Positions 15,265-51,844 of a stretch of 64,000 nt of DNA are shown piece by piece. The DNA is taken from the NCBI GenBank assembly GCA_021730905.1, contig JAKFYK010000044.1, positions 1 through 64,000 of the forward strand, given 5' to 3'. A program made the position numbers and the translations under genes. The stretch comes from Betaproteobacteria bacterium. Its GTDB lineage: Bacteria; Pseudomonadota; Gammaproteobacteria; Burkholderiales; SG8-41. The notes beneath the pieces were generated by a model. That model was not told where the DNA came from, searched no databases, and was given only the letters and a program-made list of their open reading frames with translations. The stretch's first letter is position 1, and each line of letters begins with the position of its first letter.

Positions 15265-15286
15265 TTTAGCTAGATTGGGGTACAAA

Positions 15287-28339: not shown

Positions 28340-31090
28340 TCATGGCCCAATGCGATTGAGTAGAGCGCGTGCCTCCTCAAGTTGGTCGAACTTCCTGCCT
28401 GATGCCAACAGAGTCTTCAGTTCGCTCCGGGCACGGGCGGTGTCGCCCGCCTTCACCAGAGCCTGCACTAAATGGTAGCGAATTTCTGGATTGTCTTTAT
28501 CCAGCGACAGTGCTTTGGTAAGAACGGGCAAGCCTTCAAGCAATTTGCCCTGGCTCACCAATATCCAGCCTGCAGTGTCGGCCAGCCGCGCATCGTTGGG
28601 CTTTAACTGAAAGGCTTGTATCGCGTAGTCAGCTGCTTTGGGGTCGCCTTGCTGATGTAGTGCGATGGCGAGATTGTTGAGCGCGGGCGCATGCTTCGGA
28701 CTTACTTTCAGTATGGCCTGATAATGCTCGATGGATACTTTGGTGCGCCCAGCCTTACCTTCGATTTCGGCCAGGTAAAAACGCGTGCTGAGGTCTTCGG
28801 GGTGTGCTTTAACCCATTCCTGCAGCCCCGCGTCAGAAACGGCACCCTTACCAAGGAAAGTGCGAGCCTGATGCAGCCGTACACGAATCAGTCCGTTGGC
28901 TTCGAGGGCATTGGCGTTTTCAAAAGCCGCAGCCGCGCGTGCGTAGTCCTGCTGACCCATACCAATTTCGCCTTCAAGGATGTGACCGGTGGCCCGCTTG
29001 GGAACTAGCCGCTGAATTTGTTTTGCAAGGTCTATCGCCTCGGCATAGCGCCCGAACTGCATCAGGTTTTCCGCGAGCGCCGATTGGACGGCGATATTCT
29101 GCGGAAGAATTTTTAGGGTACGACGAAGGATGTTGTCGGCCTCGCGCAGGTTCCCATTACTTGAAAAGGCTTCAGCGAGCTTGATCTGCAGGGCAACCGA
29201 CATGGGTTCTAGTCGCGTGGCAGTGGCGTAGCTGACGATCGCCTCGTCTTTCTTTCCCATGGCCTTCTGAATATCACCAACCAATTCCGCCAGGCGCGCC
29301 TCCTTGGGGCTAAGCTCGCGTGCTTTCTGCGCTGGTGCCAGAGCATCGGCGGGTTGGCCTGCCTGCAATAGTGCGTTCGCATACACTGCAAAGGGCAGCA
29401 TGGAATCCGGATGGTCGTCCACCGCCTTGCGCAGCCAATCGAGTCCTTCTTTTTGGCGTCCCGCGTCAAATTCCATCGTGGCCAGCAACAGCAATGCATC
29501 GAGATTGCGCGGGTCAAGTTTGAGAACGCTCAGCATGCGCGCTCGTGCATCCTCCGGCTTCTTGTCCTTAATGTCGATCTGCGCGAGTGAGGCAGCGGAC
29601 GCGAAGGACTTGGGTTCCAGTTTAAGTGCCTGCTCAAAACTCGCTCGCGCCGCGGCCCAATCCTGCTTGGCGCGATACACCGCACCTTTGAGAAAATGGG
29701 TATCCGCCTTATCGGGCCGGCGCTTTTCCAGAGACTGTACAGCCCGCATCGCCTTGTCAGTTTCATTTTGTGCGATCAATATCATGATCAGCGTATGGTC
29801 AGCGCGGGATTCGCCCGGATTCAATGTAATAGCGGATTCAAGTTCAGCGATGCCTTTTTGCCGATCGCCGGTCTTGATTTGTACCACACCGAGCTTGACG
29901 CGGTTATTGGCGTTGTCCGGGTCAAGCGCCACCGATTTTTCATAATATTCCTTGGCCTTGCGCGTATGGCCGACCTGCAAATAGGCTTCTCCGGCCAAGG
30001 CCAACAGTTCGGCATCTCCTTCTACCAGCGGAATCATGGGCTCAAGCAGATAGACTGCGCTCTGTGGTTGCCCTTTGCGAATCAGTACCGCAGCCAGCAT
30101 TTTGCGCGCGTAGATGTTGCCCGGTTGCAGCGTAAGGTAGGCGGTGAATGTAAACTCAGCCTGTTGCAGCTCATTGCTGGCGAAGTGCATGGCACCTTTT
30201 AAAAGCAGACTGGGCATGTGGCGCGGAATGATGCGGAAAACCGCTGCCAGATTGTCGGTGCATTCCTCAAATTTGCGCTCACGCAGCGCTATGGAGGCCA
30301 GTGTGAATCTCAGCATGGCATTGGCGGGAGCACGCTTTAGTGCTTGCGCGAGATCGCCACGCGCCTCGGCGTACTTTCCGAGATCCGCGTAGGCCGCAGC
30401 CTGGCTTACTCGAGCTACGACATGAGCGGGATTTAAAGTGGAAGCCTGCTGATAGGCCTTCAGCCCCTCCTCACGTTTTGAGTCGCCACGCAGCAGGTCA
30501 CCTTTTGCAATCCATGCTTCAACGTTCGTTGGGGCGCTAGCCAAGACCTCTTCGGTCAGTTTGTACGCTGTCTTTCGATCATTCTCCACTGCTGCAAGTC
30601 TTGCCAGACCGAGCTTTGCCTCTGCCGGCTTGCTCTTTGTTGCGAGAAGGTATTGCGTACGTGCCTCGGTGAACTGCTTCAATTCTAATTGTGCACGCCC
30701 AATGAGCAGGGATACCTGGGCTATAGTCTCGGCATCAAGATCCTTGCCCTTGCGCAATTCGTCGATCGCCTGCTGATATTGCTCAGTTTCAATCAGTACC
30801 TGTCCGAGTGTCGGCAGAACGCGCGCCTGCGACACGCCGAGTTCCAGTGCCCTGCGCAATTTCTTCTCGGCGTCCACGGCCTCACCGACTTCGGCGTAAC
30901 TTAAACCGATCAGGGTATTCGCTTCAACGTTGTCAGGCTCTAGTGCAAGTGCGTTCTTGAGCTCAATGATGGCGGCTATGAAGTCGCCCTTGGCCCGATA
31001 GCCCTCTGCAGAGCGTATCAAATCCGACGGCGACGTACTGCAACCGGTGGTGAGGAGGGCAAGGAAAAACAGCAGTGTTACGGCCTTCAT
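28340..31090 (-). CDS. Second XrtA/PEP-CTERM system TPR-repeat lipoprotein (PrsT-type)
   Basis: MKAVTLLFFLALLTTGCSTSPSDLIRSAEGYRAKGDFIAAIIELKNALALEPDN...; lipobox LTTGC; ORF extends to 31390 but the signal peptide supports 31090. Confidence 0.85.
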   Translation of the reverse strand: MKAVTLLFFLALLTTGCSTSPSDLIRSAEGYRAKGDFIAAIIELKNALALEPDNVEANTLIGLSYAEVGEAVDAEKKLRRALELGVSQARVLPTLGQVLIETEQYQQAIDELRKGKDLDAETIAQVSLLIGRAQLELKQFTEARTQYLLATKSKPAEAKLGLARLAAVENDRKTAYKLTEEVLASAPTNVEAWIAKGDLLRGDSKREEGLKAYQQASTLNPAHVVARVSQAAAYADLGKYAEARGDLAQALKRAPANAMLRFTLASIALRERKFEECTDNLAAVFRIIPRHMPSLLLKGAMHFASNELQQAEFTFTAYLTLQPGNIYARKMLAAVLIRKGQPQSAVYLLEPMIPLVEGDAELLALAGEAYLQVGHTRKAKEYYEKSVALDPDNANNRVKLGVVQIKTGDRQKGIAELESAITLNPGESRADHTLIMILIAQNETDKAMRAVQSLEKRRPDKADTHFLKGAVYRAKQDWAAARASFEQALKLEPKSFASAASLAQIDIKDKKPEDARARMLSVLKLDPRNLDALLLLATMEFDAGRQKEGLDWLRKAVDDHPDSMLPFAVYANALLQAGQPADALAPAQKARELSPKEARLAELVGDIQKAMGKKDEAIVSYATATRLEPMSVALQIKLAEAFSSNGNLREADNILRRTLKILPQNIAVQSALAENLMQFGRYAEAIDLAKQIQRLVPKRATGHILEGEIGMGQQDYARAAAAFENANALEANGLIRVRLHQARTFLGKGAVSDAGLQEWVKAHPEDLSTRFYLAEIEGKAGRTKVSIEHYQAILKVSPKHAPALNNLAIALHQQGDPKAADYAIQAFQLKPNDARLADTAGWILVSQGKLLEGLPVLTKALSLDKDNPEIRYHLVQALVKAGDTARARSELKTLLASGRKFDQLEEARALLNRIGP

Positions 31091-31505
31091 TACTCCACAT
31101 CCGAAGGGCTTGCCGAATCCACCAAAACCAGCGGTCACAAGGTTGAACTTGCCGTTAACATCGAGCAGATTGTGCATCACAAAATTGTGTATCAGTCTCC
31201 GCTTCATAACTGTAGCTTGATGACCGAACAGATTGCTTATTTGGCGTGCGGAATAAAAGGATCTGTTTAAAACAAGATCAACTTCTTCATTATAACATCC
31301 GTCGTCTTGCAAGTGAGCGGTGGATAAGATGCTAGTACGAATAACCGGCGTGGTGCGGTCAAGCGAGCGAAGCACGCGTGACTCGTTCATGGAACACGCG
31401 AGAAGGGCAAGGGTGTTGAAATGATCGATCAGACGATCTTAGTGCCTTCCCAAGGGGTTAGCCGTCAATAATCGGCAATTCGTGAGGCGAGATGGGAGAG
31501 CGGGG

Positions 31506-33407
31506 CTAACGCTGTTTCGTGACGGCGGGGCGTTCCACCATTTCGAGTAAGCGCGTCCTGGCAGTAGAGACCCCCTGGTCGACGGCCGCGCGGCTCTCTG
31601 CATCAAATGCAGTTAGCACATACTCAACACGATTGAGTTTTGCCCCTGTTTTCCCCACGCCGACTTTTATCCGCCGGAAGGCGTCGGTTTGAAATGCCTC
31701 CAGTATGGAGGCAACGCCACGATGCCCGCCCGCACCGCCGTTCAAGCGGGCGCGGACTGACACCATCGGCAGGTCTAGATCGTCGTGCACAAGCACGCAT
31801 TGTTCAGGACTGAACGACATACTATCCGCAAGCCGCTTCAGCCCCGCGCCCGTGAGGTTCATGGCTATTTGCATCTTGATCAGACAGAGTGACCTGCCCT
31901 TCATCGAACCACGCGCAATCCACGCTTCCGGGGCTTTGTCCCAAGTGAATCCCAACGAATCAGCCAGTTTTTCCACCACCTCATAACCAATGTTATGGGG
32001 CGTTCCAACATATTTGGATTCGGGGTTGCCAAGACCGACTATCACCTGCTCATCAGGTTCGATAGTGTGTGGGCTATATGGTGGAACTTGCGCTACCGTG
32101 CCCAAGACAGGCGTGTTGCCTATCAATAGTGGCAGGCCGGAAGGCTTGTTTCGATTGGGACACTCATTGCAGAATGAGTCCCGTCCACAGTCGTCGCGCC
32201 AGCAGGCGACACTGCCGGTACGTGCCAGGATGATGCGAAGCAGGTGATCCTGTTTGCCTGTGCCTTTGAGCAGGACCAGGTCGCCCTCGCGTGTGATCGA
32301 ATTAACGTACTCAGCAGCATCCCGCACATGGCTGAACATGCGCAACGCGTCTTCTCGCCCGTGCTTGCGTGCCTTGAGAACGCTGGACGCCCAAGGCCCT
32401 ACGAATATCGTTATATCCGCAATTTGCTGGGCAAGGATCGCGGTTTTTTCGTACTTCCCCTCCTTTCGGGGGCCGGTGTCAGAAAGCTCACCGATAACGA
32501 TGACTTTCCGCTTGGCCCGCGCCGCCCTCATGAATTCGAAGCACGCGTCAACCGTCCATAGCGATGCTTTGAAATCGTCCCGGATGAACGTCACTCCGTC
32601 AGGCATCGTCACCGGTTGCATGCGCCCTTCAAACGGAGCAACGCTCGCAATTCCTGCGGCACATTCCTCAAGGGTCATGCCCATAGCCAGGCCACCCCCA
32701 ATCGCCCCCAGCACCGAAGGAATCCAGTGCGTACCGCATAGGTGAGTCTGGACTTTCACGCGTTCAGAACCCCTTACCAGAGTCAATGCCAAACGATCCG
32801 GCCAAACTGACCTGATGTCTTCAGCGCGGAGTTCAGCGTTGGGTGACATTCCATACGTGATGACCTTAGCGGCGCAGGTCGCCTTCATGGCCAAGACAAG
32901 TTCGTCATCCGCATTGAGGACCGCAGTGCCGGTCGCAGGCAAGCCCGCGATGAGTTTGCCCACTTCAATGGCAATCCCTTTGCGGGAGTGAAAGGCACTC
33001 CAATGATCGTTTCCAATTACGGTGACGATACCTACACTGGGTTGCAACAGAGCCAGTTTTGTGTCCATCACGCCAGGCCGGTCTTCACTCAGTTCAGCCA
33101 CGCAGAAGTCGTGCGTAGTGCGCACTCGCAAGATCGTCTTCGCGACCTCAGGCAGGACATTGAGAGAAGAGGGGCTTCCCACCCCCCGCCTCTTGTAAGA
33201 AAGAACTGCCAGCAACAGTTCTTTTGCCGTGGTCTTGCCAGCACTTCCGGTGATACCGAAAAAAACCGGCTTCTTGAGAAACGGACGCCAGCGCTGAGCG
33301 ATTTTGACGATAGTGAGGTCTACATACTGATCGCCTACTAGTTCGCGAACACGCCAAGCGAGACCATCGCGGACATACGTGTAAATTCTACCTAGCGTCG
33401 GGCGCAT
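31506..33407 (-). CDS. Fusion protein: MurF-like Mur ligase + Cys-rich linker + peptidyl-tRNA hydrolase (Pth) domain
   Basis: N-term P-loop GITGSAGKTTAKELL, ELSEDRPGVMD, GLPATGTAVLNADDE; linker CWRDDCGRDSFCNEC; C-term IVGLGNPESKYVGTPHNIGYEVVE, MQIAMNLTG, VHDDLDLP, GGAGGHRGVASI, RIKVGVGK. Confidence 0.85.
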   Translation of the reverse strand: MRPTLGRIYTYVRDGLAWRVRELVGDQYVDLTIVKIAQRWRPFLKKPVFFGITGSAGKTTAKELLLAVLSYKRRGVGSPSSLNVLPEVAKTILRVRTTHDFCVAELSEDRPGVMDTKLALLQPSVGIVTVIGNDHWSAFHSRKGIAIEVGKLIAGLPATGTAVLNADDELVLAMKATCAAKVITYGMSPNAELRAEDIRSVWPDRLALTLVRGSERVKVQTHLCGTHWIPSVLGAIGGGLAMGMTLEECAAGIASVAPFEGRMQPVTMPDGVTFIRDDFKASLWTVDACFEFMRAARAKRKVIVIGELSDTGPRKEGKYEKTAILAQQIADITIFVGPWASSVLKARKHGREDALRMFSHVRDAAEYVNSITREGDLVLLKGTGKQDHLLRIILARTGSVACWRDDCGRDSFCNECPNRNKPSGLPLLIGNTPVLGTVAQVPPYSPHTIEPDEQVIVGLGNPESKYVGTPHNIGYEVVEKLADSLGFTWDKAPEAWIARGSMKGRSLCLIKMQIAMNLTGAGLKRLADSMSFSPEQCVLVHDDLDLPMVSVRARLNGGAGGHRGVASILEAFQTDAFRRIKVGVGKTGAKLNRVEYVLTAFDAESRAAVDQGVSTARTRLLEMVERPAVTKQR

Positions 33408-33494: not shown

Positions 33495-34619
33495 TCACTT
33501 GCGAGCGTGCCGGGCAACGAATGCCTGCAACTGTTCATCGTACATTCCCCGCCCAGATGCGTACTGGAGAATGTAAGTGCTGCCCGTGACATTGACTTCC
33601 AGTACAATGGGACCACGCTCGGTAAGCGCTATATCCCAGTGCTGGAATGGCAACATGGGAAACAGATGCGCGCCATGTGTGACCAGCTCCAGCACGTCCT
33701 TCCAATCAGGCAAGATGGCGCCAACCAGTTCTGCCCCGGTATCAGGGTGCCGGGTCAGCACCTCCTGGTGCATGCCGTAGCCGCGCACGACGCGTTCTAC
33801 TTGGCCGGTGTCAAGATCGACCGCCGCGAGCAGATTGCCGGCTTCACCCCAGGAGTAATTGTCGGTGATGTTATGACCCGTGATGACTTTCCAAACTGCG
33901 CGGAATGGCCGTACGCCAGTTTCATCGGAGAGCACCACCACGCGCACACTAGAGATGGCCGGGCCGGAGAGATGGCGGAGCGCACCGTGCTGGCTGAGCT
34001 GTTCCTGGAACAAATAACCACTCCCGGCCTTCACATATTTGCGTGGCGCATCCAAGCCGGCAAGAAACCCGACAAGCGGCAGCCGCTCGCCCGCCGCGGT
34101 CAGGAGTGCATCGGCGGCAGCGTCATACCCGAGCAGGGCAAAATCGCCCGAACCGACGTCGCCATAGACCGGCTTCGCAAATAACGGATACGGTGCAGGG
34201 CCGCGTAGCCAACTGCCGAGCGCATCAAGTAATGCGAAGTCCCGCGTGTCGAAAAAATGACGACCGTGCCGCTCGTACAAGCCATGCAGGCGCGGGATGG
34301 GTAATCCACCCGCTTTGAGCAGGGAATACATGCACAATTTGTCGAATACCAGATTGCGCCAAGCGGGAGGGTTCAACTGGTCGTCGATCCAGTGCAGCAT
34401 GCGCCAGCCGGCGACATGCTCTTTCGGGTAGCGCCCAGTGAATTCGTCAGAGAATAGGCGAAAGTCGAAGTAGTCGCTAATGCCGAAATGAGTTGCGCGC
34501 ATCTTTAGCGAGAGAATCTCGCGCGCTTGGTGCGACCAACTCTTACCGGTCTGAGCGCGCACGGCAGCTAAGTTTCTGAAGAGTTCACTTGCGTAACGCC
34601 ATCCAGGCAAAGCTGCCAT
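33495..34619 (-). CDS. Sugar-transfer-associated-type ATP-grasp protein
   Basis: FDKLCMYSLLKAGGLPIPRLHGLY, PLFAKPVYGDVGSGDFALLG, LFQEQLSQHG, HWDIALTERGPIVLEVN. ORF allows start at 34685. Confidence 0.75.
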   Translation of the reverse strand: MAALPGWRYASELFRNLAAVRAQTGKSWSHQAREILSLKMRATHFGISDYFDFRLFSDEFTGRYPKEHVAGWRMLHWIDDQLNPPAWRNLVFDKLCMYSLLKAGGLPIPRLHGLYERHGRHFFDTRDFALLDALGSWLRGPAPYPLFAKPVYGDVGSGDFALLGYDAAADALLTAAGERLPLVGFLAGLDAPRKYVKAGSGYLFQEQLSQHGALRHLSGPAISSVRVVVLSDETGVRPFRAVWKVITGHNITDNYSWGEAGNLLAAVDLDTGQVERVVRGYGMHQEVLTRHPDTGAELVGAILPDWKDVLELVTHGAHLFPMLPFQHWDIALTERGPIVLEVNVTGSTYILQYASGRGMYDEQLQAFVARHARK

Positions 34620-34656
34620 AAACCTTTCCCTGATCCTTCGCGGGTTGAAACGATAA

Positions 34657-35748
34657 CTACTTGCGGCGCGCTCTGAGCGCATCAAGCATCAGTTCGTTAA
34701 GCATGCCCGAGTGCGTGACTGCCTGCGGAATACCAAGATCGGCCTCGGTGTTGACTTCCATCAAAACCGGCCCATCTTCGCAGATTGCCACATCCCAGTT
34801 CTGCAGACACAGGCCCGGAAAATGTGGCGCCACCGCGAGGCAAAGTTCTACAACCCGGTCCCAATGCGGCAGCCTAAAGCCTTGCAGCGTGCGCCCCGTA
34901 GTCGGATGACAGACGACAGGATCGGCTGCAGGCCCAAGACCGCCGATCGTATTGCCCACCGTTCCCGTCTTGACATCGACTGCCGCGATAAGGTTTCCGT
35001 GCCTCCCGAGGGAGAAGTTGTCGGTCATGTTGCTCCCTGCGACCACTTTCCAGAACGCGGTGTGTATCCTAGGTATAGTCCCAACGACAACCACGATTAC
35101 CCGGATGCAGCTGATGCGGGGGCCGGTTATCTCGGCGATCTCGCCATGCGGTATCAGCACTTCCTGCAAGAGCTTGCCGTCATACGGCTCGAACTCGAAA
35201 TCCGCAAGCAGTTCATCCATTCCGGTGAGCGTGCCGTCCAGCAAACGGAACTGATCGGAATCCTGCAGATAAGCGGAAATACCAAGCGCGCCACGCCCAT
35301 AGGTACCACATACCGGCTTGACGAACACGGGATAGGGTGCGTCGAAGCGCAGAAAGGCCCGGACGTCTTCCAGCGTGGCGAGCCGCTTTTCATCGCCAAT
35401 GAACCGGCCCTTTCTGTTGAAAATGGCGTGGGTCAGGGGAATCGGAAAACCGAACCTGGCGAGCAGAGCGTAGGTGATGACTTTGTCGTTCGCAAGGACG
35501 CGAGAATGCGAAGCATTAAGACTGCGGTCGAGAAACGTACTGTAACGGCGCCCAATGAAGCTCGCCTTCGATGTACCGCCATACAAGCTGTCGTCGAAGA
35601 GACGAAGATCGTAATACTCGGTCAAGCCAAGGGCGCGCGGAGACAGCCGTAACTTGAGAATCTCTAGGAACTGACTCAGCCGGCTCTTTCCCGTCCGCGC
35701 CCTGGCATCAGCCGCCATGCGAGAAACCGCCATGATATTTTTCAGCAT
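34657..35748 (-). CDS. Sugar-transfer-associated-type ATP-grasp protein (paralog)
   Basis: NDKVITYALLARFGFPIPLTHAIF, PVFVKPVCGTYGRGALGIS, LLQEVLIPHGEIAEITGPRISCIRVIVVV, NWDVAICEDGPVLMEVN. Confidence 0.75.
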   Translation of the reverse strand: MLKNIMAVSRMAADARARTGKSRLSQFLEILKLRLSPRALGLTEYYDLRLFDDSLYGGTSKASFIGRRYSTFLDRSLNASHSRVLANDKVITYALLARFGFPIPLTHAIFNRKGRFIGDEKRLATLEDVRAFLRFDAPYPVFVKPVCGTYGRGALGISAYLQDSDQFRLLDGTLTGMDELLADFEFEPYDGKLLQEVLIPHGEIAEITGPRISCIRVIVVVVGTIPRIHTAFWKVVAGSNMTDNFSLGRHGNLIAAVDVKTGTVGNTIGGLGPAADPVVCHPTTGRTLQGFRLPHWDRVVELCLAVAPHFPGLCLQNWDVAICEDGPVLMEVNTEADLGIPQAVTHSGMLNELMLDALRARRK

Positions 35749-36243
35749 AACGCAGATCAGGTTGTTGTCATTTGTGTGAATGACGCGTATTCGGTCCAGG
35801 TTGGCAGTGCGCTCAACTTACTCGCTTTCAGTGTGAGGCATCATCGGCAATGATCTGCGGTGAGACGCGCCGAACACTCTCGATATTTCTCACAGCGCGT
35901 ACTCCTTGTAGCCTTTGATGCAATAGCGCAAGTTGATGTCGTCAATCTCTTTTCAACTGTGACTCGCTACCATCGCATCGTTGAACGTGTAACAATATAC
36001 CATGCTGTGTTCGGCGAACTCGCGCAGTAACTGGCTGTGGAAGGCGCACTGAATATTGAGGATATGAACGGTGGCCGCGCCACTGCTTCTCTGTCCTATG
36101 TATTTCAATACGGCCGAATTCCGCGACTGCGGTCTACCACTGCGAATTTAGCGCGCAAGTTCACGTGACTCGAACGCGCGAGTTCTCCTCGGAGCAATCG
36201 GAACCTATTATACTGGCCACTATTGTTAGCAATTCAGTCAGCC

Positions 36244-38073
36244 ATGGAACATCAGAAAATCCGCACGCGTATTCACCAAGCTTTACGTGCTAGCGCGGTA
36301 TTCGGCGCGCTAGGGGACGAGCCCTTGGCTGACCTGGTGGACGCGATGGAGTGGCGCGAAGTGCTCGGTGGCGCAAGCGTGTTCAGCGAGGGCGATCCCT
36401 CCGACAGCGCTGTCTTTGTCATCAGCGGCGGTTTGCGCGTATCGCGCCGTGACCGCGACGGGCAGGTCTTGCTCTATAACCAAGTTTACCCGGGCCAGTG
36501 TATCGGTGAGATCAACATGATTCTGCAGCAGCCGCGCGCCCAAGATGTTACTGCCGTGCGTGACTCCACGCTGGCGCTGCTGCGCCGGGATGCCTATGAG
36601 GCGTTGCTGGTGCGTTATCCTCTGGCCGTGAGCGGGGTGTTCCTGAAGGCGGTTTATGACCGCCTGCGTTTTGACAGCAAGGTGAAGGATAAAGGGCTCG
36701 CTCAGACCTTTGCTGTCGTACCGCTGCATGAGGGCGTCGATGTTCATGCGCTCACCGGCGCTCTGGTGCAGGCCCTTGCCAAGAGCGGAGCGGCGGCAAA
36801 TGAGCGCGTTGGGCACTTGTGGGTCCGTCCTGACACGCAGCAAATCCTGCTCGGCGGCGAGCCGCTAACCGACCCCGAGAGTGTCGGGGCGCTGCAGTAC
36901 ACCCATGAGGTAATGGTCTTCGAGGCAGAGGCTCGTGCCAGCGACTGGACACGCTACGCCCTGCGCCAGGCCGATCAAGTGATCTTCGTGGCGGCTGCGG
37001 GCAGCCCCTCGGGTTTAAGCGCAATCGAGCGCGAGTTGATGCAAGAGCCGGGCTACCAGCTCAAACGCCATCATTTGGTTCTGATGCACCCAAGCAGCAG
37101 TGGCCAACCCGAACTTCCAACGCCTTGGCTGAAAGCACGTAGCGTCGAGCGCATTTACCCGCTGCGTACCGGTTCCGTGACGGATAGTGAGCATTTGGCG
37201 CGCTTTCTCACTGGCAGAGCGGTCGGCGTGGTGCTGGGCGGCGGTGGCGCGCGCGGTTTTGCCCATCTGGGCGTGCTCAAGGCGCTTGCCGAAGCCAACA
37301 TCCCGACAGACCTGATAGGTGGCAACAGCATGGGCGCACTGATAGGCGCGCAGGTGGCCTGCGGCGACTCGTTGGAGCAAATTCTTGCCCAGACCGTGCG
37401 CTTTGCCTCCGGCGGTGAGCGCCTCACCATGCCACTGGTGTCCTTGGTATCAGGCCGACGTGTCGAGCGCGACTTGAAGCGCATGTTCGGCGAGCGCCTC
37501 ATCGAGGAACTGTGGCGGCCCTTCTTTGCCGCGGCTTGCAATCTAAGCCGCGGTAGTACCACGGTGCAAGATCAGGGCTTGTTATGGCGAGCCGTGCTGG
37601 CCAGCAATTCGCCCGCCGGCCTTTTCCCGCCGGTGCTGTACAACGGCGAGCTACTGGTGGACGGCGCGATTCTGGAGAACGTGCCGGTGCAGCCGATGCG
37701 CATGCGATTGGGCGCACCGCTGGAGCGTCGGCACGGCAACGGTAGTGTGATTGCGATTGATGTGGACGTGCGCACGAATTTGCGGGCCGATGTGGGCCTC
37801 GCGCGTCTCACACCTCTGAGCACCCTTAAGCGTCATCTGCGCTCAGGCGCACCCGCCTCGCCCGGTATTGCCGAGATCCTCTATAGCGCCGGCCATATAG
37901 GCGGCGCGAGCCGGCGTGGCCAGACCATGGCTCAGGCGAATTACTATTTGGAGCCGCCAGTGGCCGAGTTTCCTCTGATGGCTTACGAGCGCGCCGCCGA
38001 GATAGCCGATGCCGGGTATCGCTATGCTATAGAAAAGATAAGTCAATGGGATCGCAGCAACCTGCCGCTTTGA
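36244..38073 (+). CDS. Cyclic nucleotide-binding domain + patatin-like phospholipase (NTE-type)
   Basis: cNMP-binding fold VFSEGDPSDSAVFVISGGLRVSRRDRDGQVLLYNQVYPGQCIGEI; patatin GGGGARGFAHLGVLKAL, GNSMG, DGAILENVPV. Start may be 36223. Confidence 0.85.
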   Translation: MEHQKIRTRIHQALRASAVFGALGDEPLADLVDAMEWREVLGGASVFSEGDPSDSAVFVISGGLRVSRRDRDGQVLLYNQVYPGQCIGEINMILQQPRAQDVTAVRDSTLALLRRDAYEALLVRYPLAVSGVFLKAVYDRLRFDSKVKDKGLAQTFAVVPLHEGVDVHALTGALVQALAKSGAAANERVGHLWVRPDTQQILLGGEPLTDPESVGALQYTHEVMVFEAEARASDWTRYALRQADQVIFVAAAGSPSGLSAIERELMQEPGYQLKRHHLVLMHPSSSGQPELPTPWLKARSVERIYPLRTGSVTDSEHLARFLTGRAVGVVLGGGGARGFAHLGVLKALAEANIPTDLIGGNSMGALIGAQVACGDSLEQILAQTVRFASGGERLTMPLVSLVSGRRVERDLKRMFGERLIEELWRPFFAAACNLSRGSTTVQDQGLLWRAVLASNSPAGLFPPVLYNGELLVDGAILENVPVQPMRMRLGAPLERRHGNGSVIAIDVDVRTNLRADVGLARLTPLSTLKRHLRSGAPASPGIAEILYSAGHIGGASRRGQTMAQANYYLEPPVAEFPLMAYERAAEIADAGYRYAIEKISQWDRSNLPL

Positions 38074-41000
38074 GTCCCATCGTGTTGCCTTTGGCTGTCA
38101 GCCAGCGCGAGGTCTGGTTGGATCAGCGCGCCTGGCCCGGCAGCGCGCATCTCAATATTGGTGGCGGCGGCTTCCTGATTGGTCCCCTGGACCAGGCCTT
38201 GTTCATGCTTGCCTTACGCCAACTGGTGGCCGATACCGAGGCATTGCGCTTAGTACCACTGTCCGATGGCACGCAGCGACTGCTGCCGCCGTTTGAACCG
38301 CAACTGGAACTGATCGATGTATCCGACGCGCCGGATGTGCGCGGGGCCATGCGGGACTGGTGGCGGCAACGGATCAGCGATCCTTTTGTCTTGGGAGAAC
38401 TGCCGCCCTGGCGCTTCGCATTGCTACGTGGAGGCAACGAACTGCACGGCCTGTCCATCCAGTTTCACCACCTCATCATGGACGGCTGGGGCACCACACA
38501 GGTCATGCGGCGCTGGAGCGAAATTTACAATGCGCTTGCGCAAGGGCAGTGCGTTCCCGAGTTGCCGGGTGCATCCTATCAGCACTTTATAGAAGAGTCG
38601 AATCAGTACCGGCGTTCCCACGCATTCGCGCGCGATGAGGCATTTTGGCTGAAGCAACTCAGCGAGCCGCCTGCACCACTGATTGAGAATCGTCTACGCC
38701 AGCGCGAATCCGATGTATTGCCACAGGCCCATCTGGTGCAGCAAGTCTTGGAGCACGAAGCCTATTCGCAACTAGGGCGCCAGGTGGCGGCACTCGGCTT
38801 TACACCATTCAGTTGCTTTCTGGCCGCACTGGCACTGTATTTCTGGCGTACCAGCGGGCGCGATGAGTTGGTTATCGGTGTGCCGTGTCTTAACCGCAGT
38901 GGCCGGCGTTTCGAATATACGCCGGGCATGTTCGTCGGCCTGCTCGCATTGCGACTGCGAATCACCCCGGGCATGACCTCGGTGCAATTGCTTGAACAAG
39001 CCAGCAGGCAGATGCAAGCGTCGCTGCGCCATGCGCGCTATCCCTTGAGCGAGTTGGGACACCAGTTGCAGTTGATGCGGCAGGGGCGTGACAGCGTAAT
39101 GGACGTGCTGCTGTCGTTCGAGCGTCAGAACTACCGATTGCAGTTCGGTGCCGCGCAATTGAGGGACTCGCGCCAGCTTTTTGCCGGCAAGGCACGTTAC
39201 CCGCTTGCTGTGACGGTGTGTGAGTTTGACAAGGATGCTGACCTGGAACTGGTACTCGAAGCCAGCACCACGTGCTTTGCGCGCGACGAGACCGAACTGC
39301 TGGGGCGCCGGCTATGGTGTATTGCCAAGCAACTGGCTGCGGACCCCGAGCAACCTCTCGCAGGGCTGGCCATTATGCCGCAGGAGGAGCGCTGGGCAAT
39401 ATTGGAGGGGCTGCACAAGGACTTGGCGCAACTGGATGAACCGCCACCTACCTTCATCGAGAGATTTGAGCATCAGGCGGCGTTGCAGCCCGAGGCCTGC
39501 GCCTTGGTGTGGGATGGCGGCGTGCTCAGCTATGCCGAACTGAACGGTCAGGCTTCCGCGCTGGCGCCGGCGCTGCGTGCGGCCGGTGCCGCGCCAGAGC
39601 GTGTGGTAGCGCTGGCTGTTCCGCGCTCGCCAGAAATGGTGGTGGCGTTGTTGGCTGTGGCCAAATCGGGTGCAGCCTTTCTGCCCTTGGACCTGGATGC
39701 ACCCGAAGCGCGTCTGCGTGAGGTACTGCAAGATAGCGGTGCGGTCGCCCTGCTAGTGTCGCAGGAGACGCCACAGGCAGTAGTGGCGTTGCATGCCAGC
39801 GTACTGCGGGTGCCACGGCCACAGCCCAATGCGGCGACATACAATGTGCCGGACTGGCACAAGGCTGGCCCCGACAACTTGGCGTATGTGCTTTACACCT
39901 CGGGTTCCAGCGGCAAACCCAAGGGCGTAATGATGCCGCATGGCAGTCTGTCGAGACGCCTGGCGTGGCTGGCCAAGAGTTGGGCTATCAACTCGCTCGA
40001 TCGTGCCGCGCAAACCACCCAACTGATCTTCGACCCGGCGCTCATCGAATTGCTGCTCCCGCTTACCCAAGGCGCCAGCGTGGCGCTGCCACCGCCCGGG
40101 CGCCTGCATCCGGAGCGTCTGGCTGAGTTTATGCTGGCGCATGGCGCGACGTTCTGCGCTCTGGTACCCAGCACGCTCGCCGGTGTGCTGAGCGGCTTGC
40201 GCGGGCGCGAACGCCTCAAATTGCGCGTGGCTTGTTGTGGCGGCGAGGTTTTGCCAGTAGAAATGGCGAATCGCTTTCTGGCGGAAACCGGTGCTCAGCT
40301 CTACAACGTCTATGGCCCTACCGAGACGGCGATCTTCGCTACAGCCTGGCGTTGCGTGCCCAGCGCAGGGGATAGCGCGTTGCCGCTGGGCCGCCCTATA
40401 GATGACACACGCATCTATGTGCTGGACGAGCGCTTCCAACCCCAGCCTTTCGGCGTGACGGGCGAGGTGTTCATCGGCGGTGGCGCGCTGGCACGTGCCT
40501 ATCTGGCGCGCCCCGAACTAAGTGACGAGTGCTTTTTGCCTGATCCCTTCCGGCCCGGTGCGCGCATGTACCGCACCGGTGACCGTGGCTGGCTGGATTG
40601 CCAGGGTCAACTGCATTTCGCAGGCCGCACCGATCGCCAGATCAAGCTGCGCGGCTTTCGCATCGAGCCAGGTGATGTCGAGGCCGCCTGCCTTGCCGTG
40701 CCCGGTGTGAAGCAAGCGGTGGTGCAAAAGGTGGAGCACGAAGGCGTGGCACGCCTGCATGCCTGGCTGGAGGGGCAGGTCGAACTCACAACGGCCGAGG
40801 TGCAGGCTGTGCTGCGGACACGCCTGCCCGACTATATGGTGCCCGCAGGCTTCAGTCTGGTACTTACGCTGCCGCTCAATGGCATGGGCAAGATCGATCT
40901 GCAAGCCTTGCCTATGCCGTCTGCGCCATCTGGAAGTGCTGCGCGTCGTGCCCCTTCCGGGGTGCTGGAGCCGGAGTTACTCGCGCTATGGGAGCAAGTA

Positions 41001-41912
41001 CTGCGCGTGCGACCTATAAGCGTGCATGACAATTTCTTCGACTTGGGCGGGGATTCGCTGGCAGCGCTCGCTATCTTCGGTGCGATGGAAGATCGTCTGG
41101 GCCGGCATGTGCCGCTGCAATTGATCAGCGAGTATCCGACGATTGAATTGCTAGCTAGGGTCTTAGCCGCACCACAAGCTCGCCCTGGTGTGCTGCGGCG
41201 ATTGAGCGAAAAGAGCGACGCCCCGCCGTTGTTTTTGGCCGCGTCGGGGTACGGCGACGTATTGCGTTTTCAGACTCTGGCGCGGGCCTTGGCTGGAGTA
41301 ATGAGTGTGTACATGCTGCAACCCCCGTATGGTGATCCGCCCGCCAGCACGGCCGACTTGGCCGAGGTTTATGCTGACAGCGTCACGGCTCTGGGCTTGG
41401 CCCCGGGCTGGGTGGCAGGGTTCTCGGTCGGCGGTGTAGTCGCCTTGGAGACGGCATGCGTGTTGCATGAGCGGGGTGTTGCGCCGCTGGGTCTGATGCT
41501 GCTGGATACCATACATCCTAAAACTGTAGTGGGAAGTAGTGGCTCATGGAATACGCTGGACTGGCTGGTGCGCAAGTTGCATGTGCAGGAACTCACCATG
41601 AATGGCCGGCGACTCGGTGCGATGTTCAGTGATCCCGGGTTGATCGCTCAGGTGATGGCTCAACGCGCCTATCGCTGCCGCGGCTTCGATGGCCCCTGTC
41701 TGTTGATCAAGTCCTCCGGACTGGCGAGTTGGAACCGCATATTGTTCAAGCCCTGGCTGCGCCTGATGCCTGACCGCATCACCGAGCAGGTGGTGAGTGG
41801 CTTGCATGGCTCAATCTTCGAGGCCGGCCATGTGGACGAACTGGCACAGGCGCTTAGCCACTTCGTTTCGGTGCATGCTCGAATGGAAACAACGGGGACA
41901 CACGGCGTATGA
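38046..41912 (+). CDS. Monomodular non-ribosomal peptide synthetase, C-A-T-TE
   Basis: C: HHLIMDG; A3 LYTSGSSGKPKGVMMPH, A5 YNVYGPTETAI, A7 YRTGDRG, A8 GRTDRQIKLRGFRIEPGDVE, A10 NGMGKID; T: DNFFDLGGDSL; TE: GFSVGG. Confidence 0.92.
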   Translation: MGSQQPAALSPIVLPLAVSQREVWLDQRAWPGSAHLNIGGGGFLIGPLDQALFMLALRQLVADTEALRLVPLSDGTQRLLPPFEPQLELIDVSDAPDVRGAMRDWWRQRISDPFVLGELPPWRFALLRGGNELHGLSIQFHHLIMDGWGTTQVMRRWSEIYNALAQGQCVPELPGASYQHFIEESNQYRRSHAFARDEAFWLKQLSEPPAPLIENRLRQRESDVLPQAHLVQQVLEHEAYSQLGRQVAALGFTPFSCFLAALALYFWRTSGRDELVIGVPCLNRSGRRFEYTPGMFVGLLALRLRITPGMTSVQLLEQASRQMQASLRHARYPLSELGHQLQLMRQGRDSVMDVLLSFERQNYRLQFGAAQLRDSRQLFAGKARYPLAVTVCEFDKDADLELVLEASTTCFARDETELLGRRLWCIAKQLAADPEQPLAGLAIMPQEERWAILEGLHKDLAQLDEPPPTFIERFEHQAALQPEACALVWDGGVLSYAELNGQASALAPALRAAGAAPERVVALAVPRSPEMVVALLAVAKSGAAFLPLDLDAPEARLREVLQDSGAVALLVSQETPQAVVALHASVLRVPRPQPNAATYNVPDWHKAGPDNLAYVLYTSGSSGKPKGVMMPHGSLSRRLAWLAKSWAINSLDRAAQTTQLIFDPALIELLLPLTQGASVALPPPGRLHPERLAEFMLAHGATFCALVPSTLAGVLSGLRGRERLKLRVACCGGEVLPVEMANRFLAETGAQLYNVYGPTETAIFATAWRCVPSAGDSALPLGRPIDDTRIYVLDERFQPQPFGVTGEVFIGGGALARAYLARPELSDECFLPDPFRPGARMYRTGDRGWLDCQGQLHFAGRTDRQIKLRGFRIEPGDVEAACLAVPGVKQAVVQKVEHEGVARLHAWLEGQVELTTAEVQAVLRTRLPDYMVPAGFSLVLTLPLNGMGKIDLQALPMPSAPSGSAARRAPSGVLEPELLALWEQVLRVRPISVHDNFFDLGGDSLAALAIFGAMEDRLGRHVPLQLISEYPTIELLARVLAAPQARPGVLRRLSEKSDAPPLFLAASGYGDVLRFQTLARALAGVMSVYMLQPPYGDPPASTADLAEVYADSVTALGLAPGWVAGFSVGGVVALETACVLHERGVAPLGLMLLDTIHPKTVVGSSGSWNTLDWLVRKLHVQELTMNGRRLGAMFSDPGLIAQVMAQRAYRCRGFDGPCLLIKSSGLASWNRILFKPWLRLMPDRITEQVVSGLHGSIFEAGHVDELAQALSHFVSVHARMETTGTHGV

Positions 41913-42628
41913 GCCAGCTTGTTCCGGGATTGCGCCGCCGCCTACTTATTCTCGCGGTTGCTTTGCTTGCTTTGCTGGGATTGACCCTGGCTTGGCGCTG
42001 GTCGCCGCTGCGGGATTTGCTGGAGCCCGAGTATGCCATCAACGGACTACGCCAACTGGGTCAGCGTATGGGGCCACTAGCCGCCATACTGGGATTCGGC
42101 GTCGCGCTTAGTCTGGCTGTGCCATTGATCCTCCTGACGCTGGTCAGCGTGGTGGCCTTCGGACCTTGGATGGGCAGCCTCTATATCCTTGGTGGTGCGC
42201 TACTCGGTGCGGCAGTCAGCCACGGCATGGGAAAGCTTCTAGGGCATGAACTGCTGGTGCGCCTGGGCGGCACGCGTGTCAATTTACTCAGCCAGAGTAT
42301 GGCGCGCCGCGGCTTGGTAGCGGTGATCGCGCTGCGCCTGGTGCCAGTGGCGCCCTTCGCTATTGTCAATATGGTGGCGGGGACGACGCATCTACGTCTG
42401 CGCCATATGTTGCTGGGCACGGCCTTGGGTATGTGCCCCGGTACTTTGGCCGTAGCATTGTTTACTGATCAGCTCATGTTGTCGCTCACGCAACCAGGCC
42501 CGAGCAGCTATGTGCTGCTGGCGCTGACTGTAGCACTGATTGTCGTAGGCGTATGGGGGCTGCGGTACTGGATGAACAAGCAGAAACTCGGCCTTGACGC
42601 GTCAGATGATCCGGGTCGTAACCTCTAG
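41909..42628 (+). CDS. TVP38/TMEM64 (VTT domain, DedA-related) membrane protein
   Basis: Hydrophobic with ILLTLVSVVAFGPWMGSLYILGGALLGAAVSHGMGKLLG; ALRLVPVAPFAIVNMVAGTTHLRLRHMLLGTALGMCPGTL; ATGA overlap with NRPS. Confidence 0.85.
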   Translation: MSQLVPGLRRRLLILAVALLALLGLTLAWRWSPLRDLLEPEYAINGLRQLGQRMGPLAAILGFGVALSLAVPLILLTLVSVVAFGPWMGSLYILGGALLGAAVSHGMGKLLGHELLVRLGGTRVNLLSQSMARRGLVAVIALRLVPVAPFAIVNMVAGTTHLRLRHMLLGTALGMCPGTLAVALFTDQLMLSLTQPGPSSYVLLALTVALIVVGVWGLRYWMNKQKLGLDASDDPGRNL

Positions 42629-43382: not shown

Positions 43383-44366
43383 CTACGGCTGCTGCCTTAC
43401 CAGCCCCACATCGACCAGCACCGACCTCGAGTCGGCGTATTCCTTCTCAAGGTTTTTCCTCAGCACTGCGCCGGTCATGAAGTAGTCGGACCAGTAGTAG
43501 CGTTCGAGTTCCGCTTTCCACTCAGTGGTTTCGCTTGCCCTGCGCAGGGCGTTTTCCCAATAGGCCACCTGTTCCGGCGAGATTCCTTTGGGACAGAGAA
43601 TGGCGCGCCAGCTTCCGTAGACCAGATCCACACCTTGCTCCTTCCAGGTCGGAACGCTCGCCATCGCTCCAGGCATGCGCTGGCCGGCGGAAACGCCGAC
43701 GATGCGCAGCTTGCCCGTCGTGGCGTGCGGTACGGCGTTAGCGGCGCCAGTGGACACAAACTCGATGTGGTTGCCGAGCAGCGCGGTAACGGCCTCCGCC
43801 GAACCCTTGAATACGACCGGTTTCAATTCCCGTGCGGCGGCGCCGATACCCTTCATGAAAAGTCCGGCGGCAATGTGGTGATGATTGCCAAGCGCCGAGG
43901 TGAAGCCAAACGTCATGGATTGCGGGTCCGCGCGCAGCCTCGCTACCAGGTCCTTGCCGACCTTCACCGCCGACGCTGCGTTGACAGCGAGCACCATGTG
44001 GTCATTGAAAATAGATGCGATCGGCGTGAAGTCTGTGTAGTTCAGTTTGCTCATGCCGGTAATGTGTGCGGTGAGCAGCGTGGGTGCTACGATCAGCAGG
44101 TAGTGCGGATCACCCGCATGCGGACCCAGATACGCGTAGGCAAGTTGCCCGCCTGCACCTGATTTGTGCACGACTGTCAGGCTTGTATTGACAAATTTTG
44201 CTGTGGCAAGCGTGCGTTCGACTTGCCGCGCGAGCTTGTCGTTGGTGCCGCCGGGCGCGCTGGGCACGACGATTTCCACATTCTTCTGCGGCGACCAGCC
44301 TTGGGCATGTACCACAGTGCCGAAGCACAGCAGCGCTGATGCGATCAGTATGTGATGAAAGTTCAT
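43383..44366 (-). CDS. Bug-family (TctC-like) tripartite tricarboxylate transporter substrate-binding protein
   Basis: Signal peptide MNFHHILIASALLCFGTVVHAQ; KNVEIVVPSAPGGTNDKLARQVE. Confidence 0.85.
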   Translation of the reverse strand: MNFHHILIASALLCFGTVVHAQGWSPQKNVEIVVPSAPGGTNDKLARQVERTLATAKFVNTSLTVVHKSGAGGQLAYAYLGPHAGDPHYLLIVAPTLLTAHITGMSKLNYTDFTPIASIFNDHMVLAVNAASAVKVGKDLVARLRADPQSMTFGFTSALGNHHHIAAGLFMKGIGAAARELKPVVFKGSAEAVTALLGNHIEFVSTGAANAVPHATTGKLRIVGVSAGQRMPGAMASVPTWKEQGVDLVYGSWRAILCPKGISPEQVAYWENALRRASETTEWKAELERYYWSDYFMTGAVLRKNLEKEYADSRSVLVDVGLVRQQP

Positions 44367-44400
44367 GAGACCCCCGTTGGAAAAGATGTTCAGGGTAGTA

Positions 44401-44466
44401 GGGCGCAATCCCATTGCGCCGTGAATTCTCCATTTAATGAGCATGCGGCGCAATAGGGCTGCGCCC
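44401..44466. repeat. REP-like/BIME-like palindromic element
   Basis: GGGCGCAATCCCATTGCGCCG (44401-44421) and inverted copy CGGCGCAATAGGGCTGCGCCC (44446-44466), 18/21 identical; left arm is itself a GGCGCAAT/ATTGCGCC hairpin. Confidence 0.7.
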
Positions 44467-44871
44467 TGCGCCGGCTGGGGACTGTGGATTTCATCTGCCA
44501 GTCTAATTTCGTTCTACGCGCCATTCTGGATCATTTTTTAAATATATAGTGACCATGCGGCTTGACCTATCGAAGAGTGAATGGTCATTTTGTTAGGCGC
44601 TCTTAAACGAACTTCTTAATTATTGCGAGCGTCAGTGATGGACGTAACACTCCAGCACTTTAAGCTAGGTCGAGGTGTCTTTGGCCAATAGCTCAGACGC
44701 GAACATCGCCTGAAATTGACCTGAGCCTGTCAGCGTGCTGTCCGCGGCAAGTAATTTAGTCATCAAAGCGCAGTTATGCGCGATGGCGAACATACCGCGT
44801 TGCGGATTCGAGTTACAACACACATACGGCTCCTTGCTTCCAGCATTGAGTCAATTTATCCAGGAGAAATT

Positions 44872-45075
44872 ATGAAAAAGCTTGCTATAGCGTTAATTGC
44901 CATCGGCGGCCTTATGTCGGGTTGCGTTGCCTACGAGGTTCCAAACAGAAATGCTGGCATACATCAAGGTGATCGTGACCGTGATGGTGTACCCAATCGG
45001 GTGGATCGCGACCGCGATGGCGATGGTGTTGCCAATCGTCAGGACCGCCGTCCGAACGACCCCCGCCGCTACTAA
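44872..45075 (+). CDS. Small lipoprotein with Asp-rich thrombospondin type-3-like repeats
   Basis: RBS CAGGAGA; MKKLAIALIAIGGLMSGCVAYE; DRDRDGVPNRVDRDRDGDGVANRQDRRPND. Confidence 0.7.
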   Translation: MKKLAIALIAIGGLMSGCVAYEVPNRNAGIHQGDRDRDGVPNRVDRDRDGDGVANRQDRRPNDPRRY

Positions 45076-45204
45076 CCAGCGGTGTTCTGAAAAGGGGCGT
45101 GTGAGTGGGCTTCTTTTCAGAATCTCCAATCTCAGGGAAAGACCTGTGCGACTCCTTGCGCTGAACAGGTTTGTCGGTGTCAGCGCTTGCACGCTGTCTC
45201 CGCC

Positions 45205-46128
45205 TTAACTGAAGTAATGAATCTCCACGCTAGGCCGACCGCTGTGCGTATCCGCATAAATCATCGAATACTCCGGCACTTCCAGCCAGGTCGAGGTGTC
45301 CTTGGTCAGCGGCTCGGACGCAATCATGATGGAATCGGCGGTGTCAGAGCCGCCGGTCATTTTCCATTCATCATCGTAAAATCCGTATTCGCGGCCTGAG
45401 GTGTACCACAGGCTCAGGAAGTTCATGTTGGCCTCGTGTACCCTGGCGGGGTCTTCGGTGCGGTAGCAGCCGAAGTCGAAACAATAGCGCACGGCTGCGA
45501 GTTGTTCGCCGGTGGTGATGAACAGGTTCACCGACGAAGAGGTGGCGATACCGAGTTGCGCGCGCACATCGCGGATGATGGTCAGCGTGCGATCCACGGC
45601 GTTCACCAGTTCTTCGGCACTGCATTGGCGTGTTGGATCCTTCAGTTGCGAGGCGAGCAGGGCGTAGATCCATTCGCTGTCGGTGGTGCCGGAGATCAGC
45701 ATGGTAATTTCAGGCCGGATGAACTGCAATAGCAGTGGTTTCATCTCGCGCATGCGCGAGAGGTCACCGTTGTGCGCCAGCGCCAGTTTGAAGTCGGGAT
45801 ACTGAAATGGGTGCACGTTCTGCAGCGAGATATCGACTTCGGTGGAATACGCGACGCCGCGCACGTGCGCCAGCACGCAGGTCGAGCGTACTTTCTCGGC
45901 GAGTGCCTTAAGGTTGCGGTCAAAAACCGGCAGCGAGGTTGAGGCGTAGCTGAACGGTTTTGCTGCGTTAAACGAATGCCGGTCCCATGCGCGCATGCCG
46001 AAGCCGGCGAGGTTCAGCATGTGCAGCATCTTCGGCATGTACGACTGGCGGATCAGCGCACTGTCGGGCTGGAACAGCAGATGATCCAGCAGCACGGGCT
46101 GGCCAAGATAGGCAAGGGCGCGACACAT
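45205..46128 (-). CDS. Class II glutamine amidotransferase (YafJ-like)
   Basis: N-terminal MCRALAYLGQP with Cys2; HVRGVAYSTEVDISLQNVHPFQ; LALAHNGDL; SGTTDSEWIYALL. Confidence 0.9.
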   Translation of the reverse strand: MCRALAYLGQPVLLDHLLFQPDSALIRQSYMPKMLHMLNLAGFGMRAWDRHSFNAAKPFSYASTSLPVFDRNLKALAEKVRSTCVLAHVRGVAYSTEVDISLQNVHPFQYPDFKLALAHNGDLSRMREMKPLLLQFIRPEITMLISGTTDSEWIYALLASQLKDPTRQCSAEELVNAVDRTLTIIRDVRAQLGIATSSSVNLFITTGEQLAAVRYCFDFGCYRTEDPARVHEANMNFLSLWYTSGREYGFYDDEWKMTGGSDTADSIMIASEPLTKDTSTWLEVPEYSMIYADTHSGRPSVEIHYFS

Positions 46129-46174
46129 TACAGGGCGATCTTATTATTATAAATTAATGTTTTAAAACATATGG

Positions 46175-46489
46175 TTATGATACTATCTTCAAGCCGATTA
46201 TACCTGCAACGATAAGCGCGATACAGCCGATGCGCGCGGCGGTCGCGGGTTCGGCAAACAGCACGATGCCGAGGATCGCAGTGCCGACGGCACCGATGCC
46301 GGTCCATACTGCATAGCCGGTGCCGACCGGTATGGTTTTTAAAGCCAAAGCAAGAAATATCACGCTCGCGATCATCGCTACTATGGTAATTACGCTGGGC
46401 ATGAGCTTGCTGAAGCCGTCAGTGTATTTAAGTCCGATTGCCCATACGATTTCAAGTACGCCAGCAATGATGAGATAGGTCCAGGACAT
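46175..46489 (-). CDS. sugE: SMR-family guanidinium exporter SugE/Gdx-like
   Basis: [62 protein letters not shown]. Confidence 0.88.
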
Positions 46490-46667
46490 TGTCGGTCAGG
46501 CGGTTGGGAATGAGCAATATCTGTCGCAAGTCAATGGATCAAGCGCGTGTGTCATGCTGGCTCCTGCAAATGAGGTATATGGCAATATTGATTCTAGCGC
46601 GTTTACGCCTTTGCGGAGATAATCCGCGAACGTTGCGTCTCGTGCAAATTACACTGTGGGAGCATCA

Positions 46668-47636
46668 ATGAAACGGATTAGTTTCGCTGCAATTTCGTTT
46701 TGTGTGCCGCTGACCGTCGCCGGCCTGGCGGTAGCCCAGACTTGGCCAGCCAAGCCGGTGCGCGTGGTGATTCCGTGGCCGCCCGGCGGCTCGAACGATG
46801 TGGTGGGGCGCATGGTGATGCAGAAAGTCGGCGAGTCGCTGGGGCAGCAGTTTGTGGTGGACAACCGGCCCGGCGCTTCGGGGGCCATCGGCTCAGAACC
46901 TGTGGCGAAGGCGCCGCCCGACGGTTACACCATCATGGTGCACTCGACCACGCATCTGGGCAACGCGCATCTTTACAAGAAACTGCCGTATGACACATTG
47001 AAAGATTTTGCGCCTGTGGGCATGCTGGCCGCGCAGCCGGGCGCGCTGGCGACGCATCCCTCGCTGCCGGTGAAAACCGTCAAGGAATTTCTCGCGCTGG
47101 CCAAGGCGCGGCCCGGGCAAATCAATTATTCGTCATCGGGCAACGGCAGTGCGCCGCATCTGTCGATGGCGCTGCTGACGTCGATGACGGGCATCGACCT
47201 GGTGCATGTGCCGTACAAAGGCGGCGCGCCTCAGGTCACCGCGCTGGTGGGTGGCGAATCGCAAGCGTCGCTGGCGACGATTTCCACGGTTATCGCCCAT
47301 GTGAAATCCGGCCGCCTGCGCGCGCTGGGCGTGTCGTCGGCCAAACGCAGCAATATTCTGCCCGATGTGCCGACTATCGCCGAATCCGGCGTGCCCGGCT
47401 ATGAAATGAGTCCATGGATAGGTGTGTATGCGCCGGCGAACACGCCCAAGGCCATCATTGATAGACTGAATGCCGAGTCAAACAAGGCGCTGAAGCATCC
47501 CGATGTTGCAAACAGTCTGACGAATCAGGTGCTTGACCCGCAGCCTTCCACGCCGGAGGAATTCGCGCAGCGCATCAGGATTGATTATGAGAAATACGGC
47601 AAGCTGATCAGGATGGCAGGTGTGAAGATCGATTGA
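46668..47636 (+). CDS. Bug-family substrate-binding protein
   Basis: WPAKPVRVVIPWPPGGSNDVVGRMV, VVDNRPGASGAIGSEPVAKAPPDGYTIMV. Confidence 0.9.
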   Translation: MKRISFAAISFCVPLTVAGLAVAQTWPAKPVRVVIPWPPGGSNDVVGRMVMQKVGESLGQQFVVDNRPGASGAIGSEPVAKAPPDGYTIMVHSTTHLGNAHLYKKLPYDTLKDFAPVGMLAAQPGALATHPSLPVKTVKEFLALAKARPGQINYSSSGNGSAPHLSMALLTSMTGIDLVHVPYKGGAPQVTALVGGESQASLATISTVIAHVKSGRLRALGVSSAKRSNILPDVPTIAESGVPGYEMSPWIGVYAPANTPKAIIDRLNAESNKALKHPDVANSLTNQVLDPQPSTPEEFAQRIRIDYEKYGKLIRMAGVKID

Positions 47637-47676
47637 ACCAGCGCAATTAAAAGCGGTTATAACGAGACGAGGAAAA

Positions 47677-48645: not shown

Positions 48646-48657
48646 TAGCGGCCGTGC

Positions 48658-48685
48658 TGTCATTCTGGCGTTTGCCAGAATGACA
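48658..48685 (+). terminator. Perfect 12-bp hairpin, likely terminator
   Basis: TGTCATTCTGGC-GTTT-GCCAGAATGACA just after the Bug gene stop. Confidence 0.6.
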
Positions 48686-48708
48686 AATTAAAAATAATCA
48701 AATAAAAC

Positions 48709-49500: not shown

Positions 49501-49546
49501 GTCCTGCACTGCGCAATCAATTAAGCCGAGCAAATAAAGGGAAAAA

Positions 49547-50779: not shown

Positions 50780-50801
50780 AGTCTGGTATTGTGCGGAAGC
50801 G

Positions 50802-51815: not shown

Positions 51816-51844
51816 GTTTTATATAAGTACTTGTTTTTAAATAA

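Follow-up and report, generated by a model that had tools for sequence, protein, structure and literature searches.

A nonribosomal peptide synthetase (NRPS) made up of a single condensation (C), adenylation (A), thiolation (T) and thioesterase (TE) module is encoded in the window (the whole stretch of 64,000 nucleotides analysed here) between the genes for a patatin phospholipase and a VTT-domain membrane protein. This arrangement raises the question of what so small an enzyme makes, and of what a phospholipase and a membrane protein contribute to it. According to the original prediction, a starter condensation domain would acylate one amino acid, and the lipo-amino acid would be released by the thioesterase.

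Domain organization of the NRPS and its operon

The predicted C-A-T-TE open reading frame was present, with its five Pfam domains in the expected order (Table 1), and contained all three of the motifs attributed to it (FDPALIELL, YNVYGPTETAI and GFSVGG). The reported overlaps with both neighbours were also recovered, upstream with the patatin gene (28 bp) and downstream with the VTT gene (4 bp, ATGA). The patatin gene is listed with a TTG start at 36223, the ATG at 36244 being equally likely. A chance open reading frame can be excluded, because the catalytic motifs are kept in four relatives at 35-52% identity. The enzyme had been described as a stand-alone module, and it does hold the sole condensation domain of the 5.1-Mb assembly, a draft of 182 contigs that is 91.7% complete, with about 8% missing. 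The search for further NRPS or PKS modules with which it might form one assembly line yielded only this condensation domain; other NRPS modules were thus ruled out as partners, there being none in this genome.

Table 1. Coordinates of the operon and of the domains of the NRPS.
Feature	Position	Strand	Basis and remarks
NTE-type patatin phospholipase, operon gene 1	36223..38073	+	PF00027 (cNMP-binding), PF24179 (NTE_Ploop) and PF01734 (Patatin) above cut-off
Patatin-NRPS overlap, 28 bp	38046..38073	+	same length in G112 and G021
C-A-T-TE nonribosomal peptide synthetase	38046..41912	+	1288 aa, ATG; Pfam, operon shared with orthologues at 50-52% identity
Condensation (Pfam)	aa 14-452 of NRPS		above curated cut-off
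AMP-binding (Pfam)	aa 474-820 of NRPS		above curated cut-off
AMP-binding_C (Pfam)	aa 878-949 of NRPS		above curated cut-off
PP-binding (Pfam)	aa 977-1039 of NRPS		above curated cut-off
Thioesterase (Pfam)	aa 1061-1272 of NRPS		above curated cut-off
Condensation domain, likely starter type, HHLIMDG	38085..39401	+	closest PDB relatives RzmA-Cs and CDA-C1; tree
Adenylation domain (PF00501 + PF13193)	39465..40892	+	code DPIAACVIFK, read against EntF
Thiolation (carrier) domain, LGGDSL	40974..41162	+	Pfam
Type I thioesterase: Ser in GFSVGG, Asp in LLDT, His in LHG	41226..41861	+	Pfam, aligned to EntF
VTT-domain membrane protein	41909..42628	+	PF09335

Distribution of the three-gene operon

G112 and G021, two genomes from a different family within this order, have the three genes arranged as in the window, with identities to the window proteins of 52 and 50% for the NRPS, 54 and 53% for the patatin and 49 and 43% for the VTT protein, respectively. 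In a phylum-wide sample, two genomes of another class (G949 and G895) were found to encode a stand-alone C-A-T-TE enzyme at 35-38% identity. Genes for a VTT protein and for an NTE-type patatin (38-40%) adjoin it or lie near it there, in a differing order and orientation. Stand-alone enzymes of this kind are present in two classes of a single phylum, each time accompanied by a phospholipase and a VTT protein.

Only five loci make up the conserved set, and all of them keep the trio, in differing surroundings. No patatin or VTT match was detected in the flanks (up to 10 kb) of any of 51 other NRPS loci, and the difference between five of five and none of 51 had a Fisher p value of 2.6e-7, uncorrected for shared ancestry. 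Likewise, a contig search across genomes matched only distant NRPSs, none of them accompanied by a patatin or VTT protein. The locus counts indicate that the patatin and the VTT protein are real, conserved partners of the NRPS. Judged by gene content, the trio is a conserved unit, rare but recurring: it was present in one of 74 genomes of its own family, in three genomes of the order (overlapping samples of 399 and 337) and in two of 48 genomes of the other class, and a strict threshold revealed none beyond the genome of the window among 369 genomes of the class. A search of the open-access literature retrieved no report of an NRPS associated with a patatin and a SNARE-associated or DedA protein.

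The genus-mates lack the NRPS. An empty site was sought in them and none could be demonstrated, the neighbouring ATP-grasp gene being absent there too. Recent acquisition, as judged by base composition, was rejected, the GC and GC3 contents of the trio matching those of the genes to its right.

The loci of G949 and G895 also carry a TIGR00027 methyltransferase and a radical-SAM protein whose best matches lie in cobalamin-dependent families (L076:8450-11239 and L077:5361-7136); both may tailor the product in these two distant genomes. At L076, the contig end cuts off a second copy of the radical-SAM gene (53% alike). On contig C254 of G949 (L080) there is a second NRPS of the same kind (60% identical), cut by the ends of this 3.2-kb contig; this partial sequence was left out of the comparison.

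Phylogeny of the condensation domain

In a search against solved structures, RzmA-Cs was the top relative of the window C domain (149 bits, E 1.6e-42), followed by CDA-C1 (114 bits), and all of the top five solved sequences were RzmA-Cs or CDA-C1. The next solved C domain was that of Txo2 (87 bits), and the LCL domain of SrfA-C scored far lower (37 bits). RzmA-Cs and CdaPS1 have been described as lipid-initiating starter domains (PMC7804268). A FastTree phylogeny was obtained for 118 C-type domains, typed by their position within the protein, with RzmA-Cs, CDA-C1 and EntF as the only named references. The five operon C domains grouped with these three and with the C domains found at the N termini of four large NRPSs from this order, in a joint clade (support of 0.87) that contained none of the 49 internal C domains. 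Given the moderate supports of the tree (0.85 to 0.97) and some long reference branches, the starter type suggested in the original prediction is likely rather than proven; the phylogeny gave no LCL typing with an upstream partner.

The HHxxxDG motif is intact (HHLIMDG in the window; HHLVMDG, HHVIADG and HHVICDG in the relatives). At the position equivalent to R148 of RzmA, which gates acyl length, the alignment shows a threonine in all five operon C domains. Smaller side chains at this site admit longer acyl chains in RzmA (PMC7804268), and the threonine common to the five loci argues for an acyl chain above acetyl.

The presence of EntF, whose C domain accepts an aryl group bound to another carrier protein, within the same broad clade keeps a carrier-bound donor among the possibilities. 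An enzyme of the EntF kind, the C domain of which would use a non-fatty acyl group delivered by a separate carrier protein to give a siderophore-like or aryl product, would also account for the matching of the EntF and MxcG models across most of the length of the NRPS. Nevertheless, the scores for these models (432 bits against a cut-off of 2400 for EntF; 503 against 2300 for MxcG) are far below those cut-offs, the C domain scores 149 bits with solved starter domains versus 62 with EntF, and no aryl carrier, aryl ligase or siderophore gene adjoins the operon. We therefore rejected the EntF/MxcG-type assignment, and consider chemistry of this kind to be very improbable here.

Adenylation, release and carrier priming

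The specificity code of the A domain and the catalytic residues of the TE were read from an alignment anchored on EntF of Escherichia coli. The ten-residue code, DPIAACVIFK, is identical in the window NRPS and in the enzymes of G112 and G021, and the two more distant relatives have DPHS(L/V)SFILK. In A domains, an aspartate at the first code position fits an alpha-amino acid. The identity of the code at only 50-52% overall identity suggests that these three enzymes have been selected for one same amino acid. The Ser-Asp-His triad of the TE is intact and conserved, and matches the EntF residues. Acylation of one amino acid followed by TE release is the chemistry expected of this C-A-T-TE architecture, and homology gives good support to the reading of the NRPS as a probable lipo-amino-acid synthetase.

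The T domain requires a phosphopantetheinyl transferase. The single PF01648 match of the genome is AcpS, encoded between pdxJ and nagZ; G112 and G021 have one match each, also AcpS by sequence, and no Sfp-type enzyme was found in the draft genome of the window or in these two. By contrast, four PF01648 matches were obtained in G188, a relative that lacks the operon, and at least two of these are Sfp-like; two Sfp-like proteins are also encoded by G895. That AcpS alone was found in the three betaproteobacterial-type hosts counts against the proposed activity: in these genomes, either AcpS primes the NRPS or a phosphopantetheinyl transferase has been missed. This apparent reliance on AcpS is unexpected and provides a testable point of interest.

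As to the acyl donor, a 975-aa fusion of an ACP with acyl-AMP-ligase-like and acyltransferase-like parts is encoded on contig C25 of the same genome (G000; L098:3140-6067). It is a possible source of acyl-ACP located elsewhere in the genome, and nothing ties it to the operon.

The patatin and VTT partners

The patatin has the make-up of an NTE-type enzyme, with cNMP-binding, P-loop-like and patatin domains and a Ser-Asp dyad; the alignment of the five loci showed GGGARG, the GNS(M/I)G serine and the catalytic aspartate to be kept in every one. In the five VTT proteins, the first re-entrant stretch lacks an acidic residue. Members of the COG0398 (TVP38/TMEM64-like) group of DedA proteins have been proposed to be phospholipid scramblases, not undecaprenyl phosphate flippases (PMC10127716). 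The lack of the acidic residues of those flippases is a trait of this group, of which the window protein is, by this motif, a candidate member; unlike the others, it is fixed in an NRPS operon. Both the patatin motifs and the absence of acidic residues from the VTT protein point to membrane lipids, and the constant company of a phospholipase and a lipid protein of this kind suggests that the product acts in or on the membrane. Patatin and VTT proteins belong to large families, and both could serve in general membrane upkeep.

Proposed function and comparison with known systems

From the domain make-up, starter type, intact catalytic motifs and three-gene association, all of them read from sequence, we infer the chemistry, the acyl source and the roles of the partners. 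The operon probably (with a probability of about 0.6) serves the synthesis and handling of a lipo-amino acid (an acyl-amino acid) or of some simple derivative, the patatin and VTT protein acting at the membrane. The A domain would activate one amino acid and load it onto the T domain, and its amino group would be acylated by the starter C domain, with acyl-CoA or acyl-ACP as the donor of a medium or long chain. The product would then be freed by the TE, through hydrolysis, cyclisation or dimerisation. At the membrane, the phospholipase-type, cNMP-binding patatin and the phospholipid-scramblase-like VTT protein might feed acyl chains to the enzyme and move the product or displaced lipids between leaflets; alternatively, they might shield the membrane from a detergent-like product.

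Stand-alone starter-type modules are among the smallest lipid-forming NRPSs. The model case, compared here by architecture, is SwrW, the serrawettin W1 (serratamolide) synthetase of Serratia, a single C-A-T-TE module with an acyl-amino-acid product (PMC7767323). The paper on its cluster names no phospholipase or SNARE-type gene (PMC7767323), whereas the gene for the window NRPS is tied to those for a patatin and a VTT protein. The Sfp-type phosphopantetheinyl transferase that would be expected beside a SwrW-like enzyme was not found in the window genome, where AcpS was the single match. Stand-alone C-A-T-TE enzymes such as SwrW were known already; what sets the window enzyme apart is its constant pairing with an NTE-type patatin and a VTT protein, of which the open-access literature searched gave no report. 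RzmA-Cs, the nearest solved relative of the window C domain, aligns with it over the HHxxxDG motif and the acyl-gate loop, but RzmA and HolA start multimodular lipopeptide synthetases (rhizomide and holrhizin), whereas the window starter domain lies in a sole module. The pyreudione NRPS of Pseudomonas, compared by description only, is monomodular like the window enzyme and joins a fatty acid to proline. The amino acid used by that enzyme is L-Pro (PMC7242659). In the OaaC-type systems of gut bacteria, a starter-related condensation domain gives a simple fatty amide product (PMC13142362); OaaC is a free-standing C domain that works with an acyl carrier protein and free amines, whereas the window C domain is fused to A, T and TE domains.

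The documented unimodular C-A-T-TE architecture of SwrW (PMC7767323), together with the placing of two membrane-lipid proteins in the same operon, would also fit a secreted, detergent-like lipo-amino acid, with the patatin and VTT protein providing self-protection by removing lysolipids and re-balancing the leaflets. The trio has no dedicated exporter (ABC, RND or MFS), though, and no transport gene is common to the five loci, leaving this explanation possible but doubtful.

An involvement in envelope remodelling is suggested by several neighbourhoods. In G112 and G021, the operon follows, on the same strand, a GT2 glycosyltransferase gene located by LPS core genes, at a distance of only 13 bp from the patatin gene in G112; in G895, the NRPS has polysaccharide genes at a distance of about 5-8 kb, and the window itself includes an EPS/PEP-CTERM region. 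The TE might transfer an aminoacyl group, with or without an acyl chain on it, to a membrane lipid, a lysophospholipid or an LPS-linked acceptor, the patatin preparing the acceptor and the VTT protein distributing the product. These neighbourhoods differ from one another, however, and could be due to chance, and no NRPS thioesterase of this type with a lipid acceptor is documented here; we consider this role unlikely.

More speculatively, the trio might constitute a self-contained membrane-lipid module, in which the patatin would take acyl chains from the membrane or prepare a lysolipid acceptor, the NRPS would join the amino acid to this chain or lipid, the VTT protein would move the resulting aminolipid across the membrane and the housekeeping AcpS would prime the carrier. 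This is a long shot; if true, it would mean that the product of an NRPS is a structural lipid of the membrane and not a secreted metabolite.

The operon is small enough for expression as a whole, and its VTT gene offers a defined lipid pathway for probing a poorly understood, scramblase-like family.

Neighbouring genes in the window

A functional tie of the operon to the divergent ATP-grasp and Mur-ligase/Pth genes to its left was rejected, these genes being absent from the orthologous loci. Two adjoining sugar-transfer-associated ATP-grasp proteins, 39% alike, are encoded on the minus strand (33495-35748), and for the second of them none of 13 genus-mates gave a match at E 1e-40. Adjoining these two ATPgrasp_ST proteins, also on the minus strand (31506-33407), is a fusion of a Mur-ligase-like protein (middle and C-terminal domains, the N-terminal Mur domain being unmatched) to a complete peptidyl-tRNA hydrolase.

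Positions 2381-31390 form a PEP-CTERM/exosortase-type region, with a PrsT TPR lipoprotein confirmed by its model (28340-31390), a second TPR protein similar to PrsT (2381-5170), sensor kinase/regulator-like genes (19898-23355) and two proteins with PEP-CTERM-like tails (15275-16297 and 26904-27761). Inspection by eye identified genes for a ThiF/E1-like and a nitroreductase-like protein, in this order and overlapping by 4 bp, on the plus strand (16617-18568) and, on the other side of the operon (43383-52822), genes resembling periplasmic receptors of the tripartite-tricarboxylate type at 43383, 46656, 47677 and 51845.
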